Shown here one piece after another: positions 50,617 through 59,513 of a stretch of 59,513 nt of DNA; within the stretch, counting starts at the first letter, position 1, and each line of letters opens with the position of its first letter. The stretch covers positions 1 to 59,513 of the forward strand of contig JAOAIH010000010.1 of the NCBI GenBank assembly GCA_026414805.1, written 5' to 3'. Under the pieces are notes generated by a model. The model was given only the letters and a program-made list of their open reading frames with translations, was not told the DNA's origin and made no database searches. A program made the translations under genes and the position numbers. This DNA comes from Spirochaetota bacterium (GTDB taxonomy: Bacteria; Spirochaetota; UBA4802; UB4802).

Positions 50617-50907
50617 ATGGTAACAGTAGAAAACAACACTATCATCATACACTGCGAAAAAGCCACTCCTGATGACAAGATGGAAGTAGAATATGCTGTG
50701 GAGCGGTTACTACGCGCTGGTGCTACTGTTATCTATTTTGATTTATCAAAAACTATCTACCTGCCATCTACGCTTATGGGGTATTTGATGTGGAAAAAGC
50801 AGGAACTCCAAAAACAGGGCAAAGATATTCAGATAATATCCATGAGCGCTTCATTAAAAAAAGTATTTGAGGATATGCGCCTACTTGATTTTTTTGGAAT
50901 AAAATAA
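50617..50907 (+). CDS. STAS-domain protein (anti-sigma antagonist-like)
   Basis: The 96-residue protein is one STAS domain: beta strands VTVENNTIIIHCEKA, IYFDLSKTIYLPSTLMGYLM (with the Ser/Thr that is phosphorylated in SpoIIAA-like proteins at PST) and KDIQIISMSASLKKVFEDMRLLDFF. It may be a substrate of a SpoIIE-type phosphatase. It is encoded directly after the lipoprotein gene, but no anti-sigma kinase is near. Confidence 0.8.
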   Translation: MVTVENNTIIIHCEKATPDDKMEVEYAVERLLRAGATVIYFDLSKTIYLPSTLMGYLMWKKQELQKQGKDIQIISMSASLKKVFEDMRLLDFFGIK

Positions 50908-51878: not shown

Positions 51879-52946
51879 TTATAAATTATTTATATATGCA
51901 ATCATTTGTTCAATATTCATTACTTTTTGTGCCGCACCGCGCTTAATAGCTTCGCGTGGCATACCAAACACAACTGATGAAGCCTCATCCTGTGCAATTG
52001 TCACACCACCTGCTTGTAGTATTTCACCCAACCCTTCAGCGCCATCAGCGCCCATTCCTGTGCATAAAATACCTACACTTTTGCTTACTACCTGCGCTAC
52101 CGAGCGGAATAGTACGTCCACAGAGGGTTTATGCCTGTTGACTGGAGGCCCATCATTTATTTCCACAAAGTAGCCGTTGGAATCTGCACGCACCAGCATA
52201 TGGCGATTCCCCGGTGCAATGAGTGCTGTGCCTCTGTACAGCCTGTCACCATTCTGCGCTTCTTTTACATATAGCTTTGAATTATTGTTTACTCTATTTG
52301 CAAATGCTTCGGTAAATTTTTCTGGCATATGCTGCACTATGGCGATTGCCGGTACATTTTCATGAAGGCTACCTAAAATTTTTGCAATGACTTCAGTACC
52401 ACCTGTGGAAGCACCTAGGGCTATGATGACATCACTATGAGTAGTTCGCACCTTGGAAACTGTTTTTGGCAATATTATATCTGCACTGAACTTTTCTTCA
52501 ATTTCAATTGCTTTTTCCCTGCTGTGCGCAGTAAACCGATCCGATTTTATTTCCGCTGCAGTTATGACTTTATCCCGCAACTCAGTTGCAAAGCGTTCCC
52601 ATTCCTGCGTATCATCAGAACGTGGTTTTAAAATAAAATCAACCGCACCGTATTCCAATGCTTTTATGGTTTGTACTGCACCTTTATCAGTGAATGCGCT
52701 CACCATTATTACCGGCATGGGGTTTGCTATCATGAGCTTTCGCAAAAACGTTAAACCATCCATGCGTGGCATTTCAATATCAAGCGTCAATACATCAGGA
52801 GCAAGCTGCTTAATTTTATTTACAGCAATATAGGGGTCTAAAGCGGTTCCAACAACTTCAATTTTATTTGATGCGTTAAGAATATCGGTTAATGTTTTGC
52901 GCATTACCGCAGAATCATCAACCACTAATACCTTTATTTTATCCAA
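51879..52946 (-). CDS. cheB: Chemotaxis response regulator and methylesterase CheB
   Basis: The 355-residue protein has a receiver domain (VDDSAVMRK; phospho-Asp56 in LTLDIEMPRMDG), a linker, and the CheB methylesterase with the triad Ser in ALGASTGG, His in VQHMPEKFT and Asp in CTGMGADGAEG. It removes methyl groups or deamidates receptors on phosphorylation. It is the last gene of the chemotaxis operon and overlaps cheD by 8 bases. The stretch downstream to 51667 holds only an imperfect hairpin (51747-51770). Confidence 0.95.
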   Translation of the reverse strand: MDKIKVLVVDDSAVMRKTLTDILNASNKIEVVGTALDPYIAVNKIKQLAPDVLTLDIEMPRMDGLTFLRKLMIANPMPVIMVSAFTDKGAVQTIKALEYGAVDFILKPRSDDTQEWERFATELRDKVITAAEIKSDRFTAHSREKAIEIEEKFSADIILPKTVSKVRTTHSDVIIALGASTGGTEVIAKILGSLHENVPAIAIVQHMPEKFTEAFANRVNNNSKLYVKEAQNGDRLYRGTALIAPGNRHMLVRADSNGYFVEINDGPPVNRHKPSVDVLFRSVAQVVSKSVGILCTGMGADGAEGLGEILQAGGVTIAQDEASSVVFGMPREAIKRGAAQKVMNIEQMIAYINNL

Positions 52947-53505
52947 CTATTGATAACTCCGTTGTAAAAGTTGTATCTTTTTCGTCAACCTTGGTTAATT
53001 GTTTACAATAAACCCTTCCCGATTCAACGTCAAAGACCACTTTACGGGCAACTGTTCCACCCACATCTTCACTTACAATAGGAATATCGGCCATTTCCAG
53101 TAATATCTTTGCAATTCTTACATTCATATTACAGATCCCATACTGCGTAGTTTGATAATCCAGAACTTTCCCGCCACCAAATATCTTAGCAACTATATTT
53201 TTTCTCTGGCCATACTGCTCCATCTGGGCAATAAGATTTTCAATTGCCCTTGTGCCATATTTCAGTAGTTCTTTCTGTTCATCGTCATCAACAGTCATTT
53301 TATGCTTTGTATGTTTCTGCACCACTTTACCTGGCAATACAAAGTGATTCATACCTCCTACCTTGTTAACAGGATCGTACAGGCATACAGCCACACACGA
53401 ACCAAGCAATGTCCCTATATATTCATCTTTATTGCTAACATAACAGTCACCGGGATACAGCACTTTTAAGGGCTTCTTTAATTTATGCGAATTTCGTATA
53501 TACAT
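52939..53505 (-). CDS. cheD: Receptor glutamine deamidase CheD (copy 1)
   Basis: The 188-residue protein has the CheD active-site pattern: TLLGSCVAVCLYDPVNKVGGMNHFVLP, with Thr, the catalytic Cys and His in their usual places, and KIFGGGKVLDY near the middle. CheD deamidates Gln residues of MCPs and, in some bacteria, binds CheC. No CheC is visible here. It lies between cheR (37 bases) and cheB. The related copy at 54359 is clearly distinct. Confidence 0.93.
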   Translation of the reverse strand: MYIRNSHKLKKPLKVLYPGDCYVSNKDEYIGTLLGSCVAVCLYDPVNKVGGMNHFVLPGKVVQKHTKHKMTVDDDEQKELLKYGTRAIENLIAQMEQYGQRKNIVAKIFGGGKVLDYQTTQYGICNMNVRIAKILLEMADIPIVSEDVGGTVARKVVFDVESGRVYCKQLTKVDEKDTTFTTELSIVG

Positions 53506-53542: not shown

Positions 53543-54355
53543 TTATCGTTTTTGATATACTGAATGGGCTACATAATGGAAAGGAAGATTGGCGCTTACT
53601 ATCGCTTCAGCATACCCTAAGAAAAGATAGCCACCTTTTGGTAAATAATCATAAAATTTTTTTAATACTTTTGATTGTACATCTTTATCAAAATAAATCA
53701 TGACATTTCGGCAAAAAATTATATCAAAATGCCCTTTAAGGCGATAGCTCTCATCAAGCAAATTCAGGTGCTGAAAAGAAATTTTTTCTTTAAGAAAGTT
53801 TTTGACTTTTGCATATCCAGTATACTGATCTTTTCCTTTTAAAAAATATTTTTTTAAAAGACTAACATCAAGTGTTTGTACAGCTTCAAGTGGGTAAATG
53901 CCGTTTTGTGCGGTGTGAAGCACTTTAGTGTCAATGTCAGTGGCAATAATAGTAAATTGTTTTTTGAAATTGCTCTCATATAACACAATGGCAATGCTGT
54001 AGGCTTCTTCGCCAGTTGAGCAACCTGCGCTCCAGATAACAATATTTTTATGCGATAGCTCCTGTTCAACAATCCGCTGCAATATAGAAAAATGTTCACG
54101 TTCCCTGAAGAATTCTGTTTTGTTAGTGGTGATACAATTTATTAAGTTTTCAATTTCATCATCATAATTGTCTCTAAGGTAATCGCAATACTCTTCATAG
54201 CGGTGCATGCCCAACTCACGCATTCTGCGAAGTAGGCGCGATTGCACCAGCGCACGTTTCATTTCAGAAAGCTTTATCCCTGATTCTTTATATACAATAT
54301 TTCTGATATAATCAAAATCCTGCTGACTTAACTGTTGATAAAAAGTAGTATTCAT
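53543..54355 (-). CDS. cheR: Chemotaxis receptor methyltransferase CheR
   Basis: The 270-residue protein has the helical N-domain (FDYIRNIVYKESGIKLSEMK) and the SAM-binding domain with IWSAGCSTGEEAYSIAIVL, IIATDIDTKVL and FDIIFCRNVMIYFD. It adds methyl groups to receptor Glu residues. It lies between the two cheD genes, 3 bases downstream of the second copy. Three GCGATAG words lie in the gene. Confidence 0.95.
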   Translation of the reverse strand: MNTTFYQQLSQQDFDYIRNIVYKESGIKLSEMKRALVQSRLLRRMRELGMHRYEEYCDYLRDNYDDEIENLINCITTNKTEFFREREHFSILQRIVEQELSHKNIVIWSAGCSTGEEAYSIAIVLYESNFKKQFTIIATDIDTKVLHTAQNGIYPLEAVQTLDVSLLKKYFLKGKDQYTGYAKVKNFLKEKISFQHLNLLDESYRLKGHFDIIFCRNVMIYFDKDVQSKVLKKFYDYLPKGGYLFLGYAEAIVSANLPFHYVAHSVYQKR

Positions 54356-54358
54356 ACA

Positions 54359-54922
54359 TTATTCAAATAGGATTACATTACCGTATTGAACTTTGTCATT
54401 CAATACTTTATCAATAAACTCTTTTTCCATTTTTATAAATTCTGATATGGTGTCATTTGCTTCAACTAGATAGCGATGCACTTTCCCTGTATCGCAAAAG
54501 AAATATATTTTGCGGCGATAGTTGCCTCCAATATCAATAGCTTCCAGCGACATATTTTCATTATTGCAATATTCAGTGATAAAATCAGTTGTATATTTTT
54601 GATTATAGGATGTACCAATACCACCAAACACTTTAACAACAAAATTTTTACGATCAGCACCTAATTTAACCATTTCACCAATGATATGTTCCATAAAGTT
54701 TATGTTGTAACTATATATCTCATCTTTCTTCATCTGTAATGCTGATAATACTGGAAGCAAACAATGCCCCATTCCACCAATTTTCTTTATTGGGTCATGC
54801 AAACACACCACAAAACAACTCCCTACAATAGTCGAAAGTATCAAGTCTGCTGCTGCATGATACTCTCCCGGAACTAATATGTTCACAGGTTTTTTTAACG
54901 TAGCATCAATTACATGTATCAT
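54359..54922 (-). CDS. CheD-like receptor deamidase (copy 2)
   Basis: The 187-residue protein has LSTIVGSCFVVCLHDPIKKIGGMGHCLLP, so Thr, Cys and His of the CheD site are kept. It also has KVFGGIGTSYNQ. Identity with copy 1 is modest, mostly in that core; the C-terminal part (about 145-187) differs. It may act on other receptors, or in part as an adaptor. It stands between cheW and cheR in the same operon. Confidence 0.88.
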   Translation of the reverse strand: MIHVIDATLKKPVNILVPGEYHAAADLILSTIVGSCFVVCLHDPIKKIGGMGHCLLPVLSALQMKKDEIYSYNINFMEHIIGEMVKLGADRKNFVVKVFGGIGTSYNQKYTTDFITEYCNNENMSLEAIDIGGNYRRKIYFFCDTGKVHRYLVEANDTISEFIKMEKEFIDKVLNDKVQYGNVILFE

Positions 54923-54950: not shown

Positions 54951-55439
54951 TTAAGCTGTCTTAATATTAGCCAGTTCCTCTGAAGTTAAAAGTTTATCAA
55001 CATCAAGAATAATTACCAGGTTATCGTCTATCTGCCCTATCCCTTTAATATAATCAGTGGAAATATGTGCGGTAAAGTGTATGGTATCCTGAATTTTATT
55101 GACCGGTATAGTGACAACATCCTGAACTGAATCAACTATCATCCCAATCAGCTTACCTTTCACTTCAGTAATGATGATAACCGTAAATGCATTATACTCC
55201 ATTTCTTCCATCCCTATTTTTTTGCGCATGTCAATAACCGGTACCACCGAACCACGCAAGTTTATCACCCCTTTCATAAAAGGAAGCGTGTTTGGAACAT
55301 GAGTGATATGAGTCATACCAATAATTTCTTGCACCTTCAATACTTCAATACCATAGGTTTCATTTCCAATAACAAAGGTTACAAATTGCTCAGCCATAGC
55401 GGTATCTGCCTTTTCTATCGTTGTATTTTCAATATTCAT
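54951..55439 (-). CDS. cheW: Chemotaxis coupling protein CheW
   Basis: I choose the ATG at 55439, because GGGGG lies 6 bases upstream and an earlier start would run into the cheY stop codon. The 162-residue product has the CheW pattern FVTFVIGNETYGIEVLKVQEIIG, THVPNTLPFMKGVINLRGSVVPVIDMRKKIG and GMIVDSVQDVVTIPVNKI. It links receptors to CheA. There is an extra N-terminal stretch of about 15 residues before the domain. Confidence 0.93.
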   Translation of the reverse strand: MNIENTTIEKADTAMAEQFVTFVIGNETYGIEVLKVQEIIGMTHITHVPNTLPFMKGVINLRGSVVPVIDMRKKIGMEEMEYNAFTVIIITEVKGKLIGMIVDSVQDVVTIPVNKIQDTIHFTAHISTDYIKGIGQIDDNLVIILDVDKLLTSEELANIKTA

Positions 55440-55449
55440 ACTTTGCCCC

Positions 55450-55821
55450 CTATCGTAAAAATTTATGAACAACTGATTTAAGCTGTTCAGGCTTAAATGG
55501 CTTAATCATCCAGCCTGACGCACCGGATTTTTTGCCTTCTTGAATCTTTTCTTCCTCAGCTTCAGTTGTGAGCACTATAACAGGTGTAAATTTATCATTT
55601 TCCCTGAATTTTTTTATGAATGTTATTCCATCCATCTGTGGCATATTAATATCAACAATACACATTGCTATTTCTTCACCTTTATCTGTTAAATCTTTAA
55701 TCTTGTTCAATGCATCCTGCCCATTTTCAGCATGAACCATTCCATACCCTAAATCCTTTAATGTAAATTCCACACTTGTACGTATAGTTGGTGAATCATC
55801 AATAATCACTATATGTTTCAT
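55450..55821 (-). CDS. cheY: Chemotaxis response regulator CheY
   Basis: The 123-residue single receiver domain has VIIDDSPTIRTS, phospho-Asp57 in CIVDINMPQMDG, the Thr in VLTTEAEEE and Lys in MIKPFKPEQL. It carries the signal to the motor or another output. Its stop codon partly overlaps the ribosome-binding site of cheW. Confidence 0.95.
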   Translation of the reverse strand: MKHIVIIDDSPTIRTSVEFTLKDLGYGMVHAENGQDALNKIKDLTDKGEEIAMCIVDINMPQMDGITFIKKFRENDKFTPVIVLTTEAEEEKIQEGKKSGASGWMIKPFKPEQLKSVVHKFLR

Positions 55822-55876: not shown

Positions 55877-56131
55877 TCATCGTATAACACCACACAATTT
55901 TAACTGCTTCTTTATTGTATCGTTTACCCCTTTAAATTTAACTGTTTTATTTTGTTGCTTAGCTGTTTTTAAAAGAGATAAAATCACCTGCACAACTGAC
56001 AAATCCAGTCGCTTGGATTTTGTAAAATCCAGCACTATGTCCTTTTCAGCTCTTAAAATTGCAGCCACTTCATCAGCAAACTGTTTTATGTGTTTTACAT
56101 TTACAAATTCATCAATTTCAATTATATACAT
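55877..56131 (-). CDS. STAS-domain protein in the chemotaxis operon
   Basis: The 84-residue protein is a STAS domain: MYIIEIDEFVNVKHIKQFADEV, IVLDFTKSKRLDLSVVQVILS (the Ser in RLDLS is the usual phosphosite place) and KFKGVNDTIKKQLKLCGV. STAS proteins are frequent in chemotaxis operons with CheY-like or kinase partners. It lies between the MCP-like gene (9 bases) and cheY. Confidence 0.8.
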   Translation of the reverse strand: MYIIEIDEFVNVKHIKQFADEVAAILRAEKDIVLDFTKSKRLDLSVVQVILSLLKTAKQQNKTVKFKGVNDTIKKQLKLCGVIR

Positions 56132-56140
56132 GGCAACCTC

Positions 56141-57868
56141 CTAAAATACAATGACGCGATCTTCAGTTTTCCTTGTTGAATACTCTTTTAAAAGAGAAAC
56201 CAGCATCTGTCCTTTGTATTCATTGGCATAGAGTGCTTCAATTGTCTCTATAGTTTTATCAAGCTGCTTTGCATCAAATAATTCCCTAGAAGCTCCTGCA
56301 TCATCAAGCACTTGACATAATGTTTTAAGATTATCTTCAATATTCCTGAAGGCATCCACCTGCTCTAACTTTTCACTCAAAAATTGTTGTAATGCATTCA
56401 CATTCCGTTCAATCTGCTGTGAAATATCAATGTAATATTTTTTTGATTCATACAGTTTTAATGAAACCTTTTTCAAATTTGCAACACAATTCTGTAAAAT
56501 GGTATCCTGTACTGACATGGCCTGTTCATACAACTTGTACGTGGATTCCATAGTGCCAATAACATCTTTGTATAGATTTTCTGATTCCTCAACAATTTTC
56601 TTTATTTTCTTTGGCATGATGCTTATATCTGAAAGGGAACTTGCAATAGTCTTCTGCAACTCTCTATGGCGAGCAAGCTCAATACGCGTTAACATGTTTA
56701 CCACATCAAACTTTCTCACAACATCTTGTATTTTATTAAAAAAATCCTGAAATTTACGAAGTTGAGCCAGCACATCACCAGACACACCAAGCAAAAAAGC
56801 TTTCTTTTCCAATATTTCTTCAAGATACCTTACCGTTTCTTGCTGCAACACATCCAATGAATTATACACTTTATCAATGTTAAACTCGGTTCCATCAAAT
56901 ACTGATTCATATGTTTTTGTATATTCATGAGCTATCGCCTCAACACTGTTCTTCATTGTGGAAATTCCATCATGTGCACTTGTATACAAATGGACAAAAT
57001 CATTTTGAAGCGACAGTACCTTTTGATACATTCCCCACAAAATAATATCAGCGTGATCTTCGCTGATGCCAAATTCCTCAAGAGCCTCAAGTGCAAATAA
57101 TATTTTTTCAATATCCTGTCGTACAATATCTTCAACCTGAAACTCCTGCAACAATCCACTTATTCCACTATTTAACTGATCAGCAAAGCTCACAATAGAT
57201 TCAACATTGTGTGACAACGATTTCTGATGGCTTATAATGTCCTGTATTGAATTATTAAGTTTGATCTGTAAATGCGTGAGATAGTTCTCAACAATAGCAT
57301 CAACTGTCTGACACGTATTGTTAAATTTTATTCTCAACTGGTGTAAATAATCTATTATTTCCTGAAATTCAGATGAAACATCATTTACCATATCAGCTAA
57401 ATGTGACATCTCCACTGCAATAGTTGTCAGTGTGGAGCCCTCTTCTCCCGCTTTAATGGAAATTATCATGGTATTTTTTGCATATAGATCAATTGCTTCA
57501 ACTGCATCCAGTATCATTGCAACACTGTTACTTAATGTCAGCGTTTTGTTAATGGCTTCCTCAACCTCTCTATTTGTTGCTCTGTCAGCAATCATATACT
57601 TAACTACAGTATCAATATACCCATTTATTTCATCTTTTGTGCCCAGAATTACATCATGTAAAAAAGTATCAGGAATATTTTCCTCAGTGGTGTAAAAATA
57701 ATATATATATGGCTTGATCATGGTGAAAAATTCATCAATGCGTTTATTAATAATGGTAAAACGTTGAATTAACTCAGAAAAAAGAGAACCTATGCTGCCC
57801 TTCAATTCCTTGAGGTATGCATAATGATCACTTATTGACTTATGGTAGGCAGTTAAATTCATCACCAT
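56141..57868 (-). CDS. Soluble, receptor-like coiled-coil protein of the chemotaxis operon
   Basis: The 575-residue protein is almost all helical and has no membrane segment or signal peptide. Around residues 120-165 it reads AVEAIDLYAKNTMIISIKAGEEGSTLTTIAVEMSHLADMV, which aligns with the tip of MCP signalling hairpins (N..A.AGE.G..F..VA.E.R.LA). Later, LLQEFQVEDIVRQDIEKIL recurs in related cytoplasmic receptors. It lies between cheA and STAS. It could be a cytoplasmic receptor or a signalling scaffold that has lost its sensory part. Methylation sites are not evident. Confidence 0.6.
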   Translation of the reverse strand: MVMNLTAYHKSISDHYAYLKELKGSIGSLFSELIQRFTIINKRIDEFFTMIKPYIYYFYTTEENIPDTFLHDVILGTKDEINGYIDTVVKYMIADRATNREVEEAINKTLTLSNSVAMILDAVEAIDLYAKNTMIISIKAGEEGSTLTTIAVEMSHLADMVNDVSSEFQEIIDYLHQLRIKFNNTCQTVDAIVENYLTHLQIKLNNSIQDIISHQKSLSHNVESIVSFADQLNSGISGLLQEFQVEDIVRQDIEKILFALEALEEFGISEDHADIILWGMYQKVLSLQNDFVHLYTSAHDGISTMKNSVEAIAHEYTKTYESVFDGTEFNIDKVYNSLDVLQQETVRYLEEILEKKAFLLGVSGDVLAQLRKFQDFFNKIQDVVRKFDVVNMLTRIELARHRELQKTIASSLSDISIMPKKIKKIVEESENLYKDVIGTMESTYKLYEQAMSVQDTILQNCVANLKKVSLKLYESKKYYIDISQQIERNVNALQQFLSEKLEQVDAFRNIEDNLKTLCQVLDDAGASRELFDAKQLDKTIETIEALYANEYKGQMLVSLLKEYSTRKTEDRVIVF

Positions 57869-57898: not shown

Positions 57899-59513
57899 TT
57901 AAGAACTGATAAACCCATGTACATCTATTATCAGGGCGATAGTTCCATCACCCAATATGGCAGCACCAGAGATTGCTCTTGAAGAAGTTATTTCTCTATC
58001 TAAGCTTTTAATTACTATTTGCTGCTGACCAATTAATTCATCAACCACAAGCCCTAACGCTTTGCCCTGCGATTCAACTATCACCACAAGTCCATCCCAT
58101 GGATTTTCAATTGTTAGCGGAAGGTTAAATTCTTTGTGGAGCCGCAACAATGGCACATATTCCCCTCTAACGTGGACCACTTCGCCTTTATTTTCCACCG
58201 TTTTTATATCTTTCATTGTTGGTTTGATGCTTTCGACTATAGAAAGAATTGGTATAATAAATGTTTCCTGTGCCACTTTTACCAGCATCCCATCAATAAT
58301 AGCAAGTGTCAATGGAAGTTTTATTGTAAATCGTGCCCCTTTATCTGGTTCAGAGAATATTTCAACACTGCCGCGCAGAGCTTCAATATTGGTCTTGACA
58401 ACATCAAGGCCAACACCTCTTCCTGAAAGGTCACCCACACTTTCCGCTGTTGAAAAACCCGGTGCAAAAAGCAAATCATATATCTTTGCATCAGGGACAT
58501 CCTCATTTTTACCAATCACACCTGTTGCAATGGCTTTCTGTAATACCCTCTGTTTATCGATACCACAGCCATCATCAGAAACTTCAATGAATATATTGCC
58601 TTCCTGATGATATGCCTTTAGCATCACAGCACCTTCCCGCGGTTTCCCTTTTGCTTCCCTTTCTTCAGGGGATTCAATACCATGATCTATCGCATTACGA
58701 ATTAAATGCTTTAACGGGTCACTGATGCGTTCAATGACAGTTTTATCAATTTCTGTATCGCCACCTGCTATTTCCAAGTGAATAGTTTTCCCATGTGCTT
58801 TTGCGGTATCGCGTATAAAACGCCGGTACTGCTCAAAAACTGGCCCAATCGGTACCATGCGTATGCGCATCAGATGCTCCTGAAATTCACGGATGATACG
58901 ATCAACACCATATAAGGCATTATTTAAACGATATGCCTTTTCATCTTCAATCTCTTCGGCAATACGTTTTACTCCAGAAAATCCAATGACCATTTCACCA
59001 AGTAAATTCATGAGGCTATCAACTTTTTTTGCATCAACTCTGAGTGTCGAAGTACTCAAATGTTTCTTTATATTTTCCTGTTCTTTTAATGCCAGTGAGA
59101 CATCATTTTCCTCAATATATCCCTTGGTAACAGCTATCTCCCCAACCTTCTTCTTTGTCTTTTCATGCTCACTGAGAACATCTTCATATTCTTGTTCGGT
59201 CAGCATTCCTTTTGACAACAACAACTCACCTAACTTTGGCACATCCTCAATGACTGGTTGAGCAACATAATTTTTTGTAACATCAGTGATTATGATTTCA
59301 TTGTCATCACGAACAAAAATAAACACATCATCCAGAGCTTCTTCTTTGCTCTTTGTTTTGAGAATAACATCCCACCAAATATAACATTTCTCAGAGTCTA
59401 GATTGTCAAGTAGTGGGACATCATTTCGATTAACACGCAATTCAGTAATCATACCAAGCGAGGCAAGATCTTCCATTATAATCAGTGGATCAATACCGGA
59501 TTTAAATATGTCC
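57899..59513 (-). CDS. cheA: Chemotaxis histidine kinase CheA, 5' end outside window
   Basis: The reading frame continues past an internal Met at 59476 to the right edge (IFKSGIDPLIIMEDLASLG), so the Hpt domain with the phosphorylated His lies outside. Present are the P2-like segment, an extra module of two similar units (59063-59236: KLGELLLSKGMLTEQEYEDV and KVGEIAVTKGYIEENDVSLA), the P3 dimerisation helices (VDSLMNLLGEMVIGFSGVKR), the HATPase with IRNAIDHGIESPEER, DDGCGID and GRGVGLDVVK, and the CheW-like C-terminal domain. It is the start of the chemotaxis operon. Confidence 0.93.
   Translation of the reverse strand, partial: DIFKSGIDPLIIMEDLASLGMITELRVNRNDVPLLDNLDSEKCYIWWDVILKTKSKEEALDDVFIFVRDDNEIIITDVTKNYVAQPVIEDVPKLGELLLSKGMLTEQEYEDVLSEHEKTKKKVGEIAVTKGYIEENDVSLALKEQENIKKHLSTSTLRVDAKKVDSLMNLLGEMVIGFSGVKRIAEEIEDEKAYRLNNALYGVDRIIREFQEHLMRIRMVPIGPVFEQYRRFIRDTAKAHGKTIHLEIAGGDTEIDKTVIERISDPLKHLIRNAIDHGIESPEEREAKGKPREGAVMLKAYHQEGNIFIEVSDDGCGIDKQRVLQKAIATGVIGKNEDVPDAKIYDLLFAPGFSTAESVGDLSGRGVGLDVVKTNIEALRGSVEIFSEPDKGARFTIKLPLTLAIIDGMLVKVAQETFIIPILSIVESIKPTMKDIKTVENKGEVVHVRGEYVPLLRLHKEFNLPLTIENPWDGLVVIVESQGKALGLVVDELIGQQQIVIKSLDREITSSRAISGAAILGDGTIALIIDVHGFISS

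Follow-up and report, generated by a model that had tools for sequence, protein, structure and literature searches.

BB0569 of Borrelia is described as an atypical MCP, polarly localized and required for chemotaxis (PMC5318424, PMC10703414). The second of these papers gives the gene order cheW2-bb0566-cheA1-cheB2-bb0569-cheY2 and reports that a Borrelia cheA2 mutant "ran constantly in one direction" (PMC10703414). In Bacillus, CheD binds receptors and increases their capacity to activate CheA. CheC, a phosphatase of CheY-P, binds to CheD, more tightly when CheY-P is present, and is believed to regulate it in response to CheY-P (PMC3513319). The phosphatase motif of a third protein, CheZ, is DxxxQ, with AXXF(Y)Q before it (PMC7750401). 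A report on CheT of Sinorhizobium meliloti describes a DXXXQ motif in a protein that resembles no known chemotaxis protein in sequence (PMC12654446).

The window analyzed here is one entire contig of 59,513 bases (G000:C10) from a Spirochaetota genome. Its minus strand carries an uninterrupted ORF with an ATG start (56141–57868) that, by its family profiles, encodes a BB0569-like soluble, MCP-derived protein of 575 residues. The protein combines two putative MCP-like halves, a CheZ-type DxxxQ site, and a tail, predicted to be disordered, that ends in Phe. Its family identity and anatomy are well supported, and the family itself is already known through BB0569.

Locus, family, and gene neighborhood

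The 575-residue protein is encoded between cheA (57899–59512, minus strand), the 5′ end of which lies past the contig end, and a gene for an 84-residue STAS-domain protein (55877–56131). Downstream on the same strand follow genes for a CheY-type receiver (55450–55821), CheW (54951–55472), a first CheD (54359–54922), CheR (53543–54355), a second CheD (52939–53505), and CheB (51879–52946), all assigned by Pfam, as are the STAS protein and CheA; for CheA, a full-length orthologue carrying an Hpt domain was also found in the related locus L093. The placement of cheR (53543–54355) between two diverged cheD genes is common to several close relatives. In the visible N-terminal part of CheA, two similar stretches, LGELLLSKGMLTEQ.. 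and VGEIAVTKGYIEEN.., precede the dimerization domain; we take them to resemble the N-terminal repeats of GspE/MshE, and Pfam gave no GspE/MshE-type match for them. The STAS gene (55877–56131) is a regular component of these che clusters, and a STAS gene also occupies the position of Borrelia BB0566 (STAS, E 1.1e-6). In the aligned sequences, the position following the conserved Asp, where SpoIIAA has its phosphorylated Ser, is mostly occupied by Leu or Ile and never by Ser. A weak second STAS-like ORF is found on the plus strand at 50617–50907 (E 0.015).

Among named relatives, the closest are Spirochaetota/Spirochaetia MAGs, one of them labeled "uncultured bacterium", at 69–78% protein identity. 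A search of 59 related genomes returned some match in 36, the weak ones being mostly ordinary MCPs and 16 being strong and essentially full-length (L001–L016). These 16 were aligned (A1) and used as a profile, which matches 70 of 392 phylum genomes at E ≤ 1e-12. NF052273, the NCBIfam model of the BB0569 family, likewise matches 70 of the 392 at E ≤ 1e-10, and its curated cut-off of 1000 bits is exceeded in 36, all from one family (f39) that, judging by the model name and gene order, is Borrelia. The two lists share 19 genomes, and their union gives 121 of 392 Spirochaetota genomes with a member. NF052273 has no match in the window protein at E ≤ 1. It is matched by 20 of the 37 sequences of a wider alignment, A2 (best 8.6e-44), in which identity to the window protein falls as low as 13%. 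In a separate alignment, Borrelia-type members can be aligned jointly with the relatives of the window protein. The f39 gene order, cheW-STAS-cheA-cheB-member-cheY, is the one published for Borrelia (PMC10703414). By sequence comparison, homology of the window protein to Borrelia BB0569, via intermediates, is well supported. The two proteins have in common a similar length, a degenerate MCP tip, the DxxxQ site, and a second tip; the Borrelia-type versions read FQDRLTQ at the DxxxQ site, SKIEVVK at the second tip, and VILF at the tail end. They differ in that the window operon carries two cheD genes and cheR and in that NF052273 is reached only via intermediates. No relatives of the family were found in plasmid or phage records.

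The neighborhoods of 56 members were inspected singly. A che gene, defined as a match to HMMs built from the cluster in the window, lies within 6 kb in 53 of them, including cheD in 44, cheA in 32, and a STAS gene in 29; L079, although intact, lacks any che gene over that distance. Within 300 bp, the gene that follows on the same strand is cheD at 23 loci, STAS at 13, cheY at 4, cheW at 3, and cheR at 2, and 11 loci have none. In several families that lack a nearby cheA, the member and cheD overlap or are separated by a few bases, so the two genes often form a unit of their own. Presence together with CheD in a genome counts for little by itself, because PF03975 (CheD) is present in 57 of the 59 relatives. 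The original prediction saw in this gene a built-in partner of cheA; the operon does recur in related genomes and the product is a che-cluster protein, but the pairing with cheA is too narrow a description, many lineages placing the gene beside cheD and away from cheA.

The same prediction called the gene the only receptor-like one in its operon, which is correct within the window and is probably an effect of the contig end. In 11 relatives (L091, L092, L093, L095–L098, and L101–L104), an MCP-like gene on the same strand lies just upstream of cheA, with gaps of 24–82 bp, except at L101 (435 bp); the L092 fragment is not long enough to show the tip. The full-length upstream MCP of L093 (L093:893–2941) has dCache, HAMP, and MCPsignal domains, and all of the upstream MCPs end in aromatic-x-x-aromatic, mostly GFEEF. 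The orthologue in the window genome is L114, an MCP truncated by a contig end (G000:C87), which shares 57% identity with the L093 MCP over 349 residues, whereas the runner-up MCP reaches 28% over 486. Not one of the 18 remaining MCPs in the window genome has a C-terminal Phe. Given the upstream MCPs of the relatives and the orthology of L114, the window operon very likely begins with a membrane receptor beyond the window.

Two probable chemoreceptor-like halves

The 575-residue protein was described at the outset as cytoplasmic, with a weak but readable receptor tip, and both points stand. No transmembrane segment was found: the best 19-residue Kyte-Doolittle mean is 1.24, compared with 2.29–2.96 for 18 MCPs from the same genome. 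Taken singly, the window protein matches PF00015 at E 7.7e-4 and 19.8 bits, below the gathering score of 34.6. Across the family, E-values of 1 or lower against PF00015 are obtained for 31 of 37 members (best 6.8e-9), and the family profile retrieves the soluble MCP of T. maritima (2ch7) at 5.8e-15, which places the similarity to the MCP signal domain beyond chance. The profile similarity to MCPs, soluble ones such as 2ch7 included, extends over the hairpin tip. The window protein differs from MCPs in lacking a sensor, a membrane part, and the Glu of the first tip and in having two halves, the DxxxQ site, and the Phe-ended tail. There is no sign of a ligand-receptor role in this MCP-derived cytoplasmic protein, in agreement with the original view.

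Profile comparison with the 18 MCPs of the same genome gives E 1.9e-14 for the first half, over the tip, and E 4e-6 for the second half, where RIELAR is aligned on the MCP segment NASIEAAR. The two halves match each other at E 8.8e-8 with their tips in register, and a helical control, MCP against CheZ, gives E 0.84. Because coiled-coil composition inflates these E-values, the presence of two degenerate MCP-like hairpins in tandem is considered likely rather than proven.

The first tip, defined by alignments and profile comparison, comprises residues 135–154, IISIKAGEEGSTLTTIAVEM (57407–57466, minus strand), and is immediately preceded by N132. N132, G141, and G144 are invariant in 57 of 57 sequences. 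The column of the canonical tip Glu of MCPs (residue 136) holds mostly Ile or Val and Glu in none of 38 aligned sequences. The second tip, residues 395–400, RIELAR (56669–56686, minus strand), likewise placed by alignment and profile comparison, has an invariant E397 (57/57) and always Lys or Arg at residue 400. The features of an MCP tip are thus divided: the first retains N132, Lys/Arg139, G141, and G144 without Glu, and the second retains E397 and Lys/Arg400 without Asn and Gly. Across the 38 sequences, the Glu of the MCP NxxxE tip is absent from the first tip and is found in the second only.

Two AlphaFold models (pLDDT 84.1 and 82.4, pTM 0.57 for both) consist of long helices, and the proteins most similar to them in fold are unrelated helical ones (TTYH and ClyA-type). 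The E. coli receptor 8c5v gives an end-to-end alignment with residues 268–525 (Z 9.4, 252 residues, rmsd 5.2), a predicted likeness that is suggestive only; 8c5v is missing among the matches listed for the second model. In that model, helix 112–264 runs unbroken through the first tip, so a U-turn at this position is not established. The predicted models leave the fold unsettled.

A DxxxQ site and a phenylalanine-ended tail

Apart from the tips, conservation is concentrated in two places: the CheZ-type motif D247-I-V-R-Q251 (57116–57130, minus strand) and the C-terminal tail, residues 567–575, which ends in F575 (56144–56170, minus strand) and is delimited by the models and the alignment. The invariant columns of A2 (37 sequences) number seven: N132, G141, G144, D247, Q251, E397, and F575. 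The same seven rank highest among the 575 positions in an alignment of the window protein with the 56 inspected loci, in which the sequences are nonindependent, several coming from one genus. N132, G141, G144, and E397 are conserved in all 57 of these sequences, and D247, Q251, and F575 each in 56. Twenty later-fetched loci were absent from the earlier alignments, two of them belonging to the Borrelia-type group already represented there; 19 of the 20 have DxxxQ and 19 of the 20 the Phe. The Phe is the last residue except at L094 and L163, where an extra Lys and an extra Glu, respectively, follow it.

Many helical proteins without any relation to the family are matched by its long helices. The resemblances described above could in principle be a chance likeness between coiled coils of separate origin, and the conserved motif an artifact of alignment. 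The full-length homology across the phylum, the che neighborhood at 53 of 56 loci, and the recurrence of motif and tail in 19 of 20 loci outside the earlier alignments (2 of the 20 Borrelia-type) make this most improbable.

Residues 567–575 are predicted to be disordered (pLDDT < 50), as expected for a docking tail, and family tails include TVIVF, EVTLF, and EITFF. NWETF is the C-terminal pentapeptide by which receptors bind CheR. A soluble receptor that tethers CheR or CheB through a comparable tail would account for the terminal Phe and for the presence of CheR in or near many of the clusters, and the MCPs of these operons do end in aromatic-x-x-aromatic. The first of the two aromatic residues, present in the neighboring MCPs (GFEEF), is missing from the family tails, and for this reason the tether is rejected as very unlikely.

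The comparison with CheZ gives a mixed result. When 70-residue segments around DxxxQ were scanned in isolation, the NCBIfam model of CheZ (NF041271) was matched by 6 of 37 (best 9.2e-4), and each of the other 18 NCBIfam families by a single segment; with full-length sequences, it was matched by 5 of 37. It is missing from the best 25 of 69 families for the 18 MCPs. The window protein itself has no match to the CheZ model. PF04344 (CheZ) was above its cut-off in 0 of 59 genomes, the CheZ family is not among the best 25 of 32 Pfam families for the DxxxQ segments, family-to-CheZ profile comparison gives E 0.18 or worse, and a profile of the DxxxQ segment searched against the PDB did not find a CheZ chain. 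An HMM built from eight proteobacterial CheZ proteins finds some domain in 40 of 56 family members, compared with 6 of 18 MCPs. A DxxxQ falls on the CheZ motif in 11 of the 40 best domains, one of which (L086) is apparently elsewhere in the protein. The best family score, 6.2 bits, is no improvement on the 6.1 bits reached by the MCP controls.

Overall homology to CheZ was rejected, nothing significant having been obtained by Pfam, profile comparison, or the custom HMM. Since this HMM fails to separate the family from MCPs, the resemblance is placed at the level of the motif and is probably convergent. What the two share (PF04344, NF041271) is a DxxxQ in similar surroundings and a Phe-ended tail; the window protein is larger and receptor-derived, and its conserved tail, predicted to be disordered, does not match DDLLxSLGF, the tail of CheZ, in sequence. 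CheT offers a second case of DXXXQ outside the CheZ family, as in the window protein, with the difference that CheT is a reported CheR binder (PMC12654446).

One member departs from this pattern. In L164 (genome G244), both tips are intact, D247 is replaced by Asn and Q251 by Arg, and the tail is gone, with no continuation of it encoded in any of the three forward reading frames there; the gene (L164:655–2448) is followed by an apparent ribosomal protein S16 gene. PF03975 has no match in G244, a genome that is 97% complete; CheD is present in all 24 other family-bearing genomes tested (6, plus 18 in the relatives set). In G244, CheW domains are matched 15 times, in several cases within ORFs of CheA size, and there is a CheC/CheX-type match, so its chemosensory systems have not been lost. 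Since chemotaxis proteins were retained despite loss of the motif, CheY alone cannot explain the motif. This one case, from a fragmented genome, ties the DxxxQ site and the tail to each other and to CheD.

L164 bears on two alternatives. According to the first, the protein is a client of CheD, with Q251 as a site of CheD deamidation or binding, the tail docking CheD, and CheY uninvolved. The gene pairing with cheD fits, as does loss of the module in the sole family-bearing genome found without CheD, a loss seen in one lineage only. Deamidation sites for CheD in receptors follow A/S-x-x-Q-Q/E-x-x-A/S, which the DxxxQ segment does not resemble, and a CheD client leaves unexplained both the partnered Asp and the match of the segment to the CheZ model. 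We regard it as rather unlikely. The second alternative is a purely structural array component, a cytoplasmic receptor-like scaffold of the kind described for BB0569, which aids receptor clustering and in which DxxxQ and the tail make noncatalytic folding or oligomer contacts. The two MCP-like tips are the most constant features of the family, and BB0569 is called an atypical MCP that is polar and without which chemotaxis fails (PMC5318424, PMC10703414). The final residue is nearly invariant, yet the tail is predicted to be disordered, and the joint loss of D247, Q251, and F575 with retention of the tips fits a separate binding module better. A scaffold alone seems on the unlikely side; the conserved CheZ-like site and tail suggest that a CheY signal is read or erased.

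A possible role beside CheD

The original observation of a soluble MCP-like protein is confirmed and its interpretation partly supported; overlooked were the second MCP-like half, the DxxxQ site with the Phe-ended tail, the membrane MCP at the head of the operon in relatives, and the association with CheD. Taking these features together, we tentatively propose, as a reading that falls somewhat short of probable, that the protein is a receptor-derived, CheY-P-responsive partner of CheD and perhaps a CheY-P phosphatase. The protein would reside at the receptor array and act with CheD, D247xxxQ251 would engage CheY-P in the manner of the CheZ DxxxQ, and the Phe-ended tail would dock a partner, either CheY or CheD. 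It would thereby fill the place that CheC has beside CheD in Bacillus, coupling pathway output back to receptor activation. The sequence family, the likeness to MCPs, the conservation, the pairing with cheD, and the joint loss in one lineage are observed; array location, contact with CheY and CheD, and phosphatase activity are inferred. More doubtful, though still a real possibility, is the broader form in which a duplicated chemoreceptor hairpin has turned into a CheY-P phosphatase and a sensor controlling CheD throughout the family, BB0569 included.

The behavior of Borrelia speaks against part of this proposal. BB0569 mutants are said (Zhang et al. 2016) to run constantly, like the cheA2 mutant. 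Constant running corresponds to low CheY-P, the opposite of what loss of a phosphatase would give, and it argues against a simple phosphatase, at least for CheY3. The phenotype suggests instead that the protein promotes clustering or the activation of the kinase.

BB0569 has so far been regarded as an unusual MCP, with no mechanism attached to it. The three residues that are almost invariant beyond the tips, lost jointly in a genome without CheD, supply a testable site and a partner. If the proposal is correct, spirochetes regulate CheD by a receptor-derived protein in place of CheC, DxxxQ chemistry has a further origin, and CheC-like feedback has been built from receptor parts across much of the phylum. 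No literature linking BB0569 with DxxxQ or CheD was found, nor any on the phylum-wide extent of the family, its double MCP-like anatomy, or the DxxxQ-plus-tail module, in material that consisted mostly of titles and the beginnings of abstracts and included few subscription journals.

CheC of Bacillus and Thermotoga is a CheY-P phosphatase that acts with CheD, as is proposed for the window protein (PMC3513319). The window protein differs in having no PF04509 or PF13690 (CheC/CheX) match at E ≤ 1 among the nine families listed for it. In those bacteria, the cheC gene is paired with cheD. In family-bearing genomes, CheC/CheX matches exist elsewhere, and none among those listed for 13 such genomes lies within 60 kb of a member, matches on other contigs being treated as distant. 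A search of the member neighborhoods with several individual CheX sequences, which has low sensitivity, found nothing either. That these genomes encode other CheY-P phosphatases (CheX/CheC) counts against the phosphatase reading. In the window genome, a 1022-residue ORF (G000:C40:27318–28505) has both CheC-type and CheW matches, which suggests a fused second kinase.
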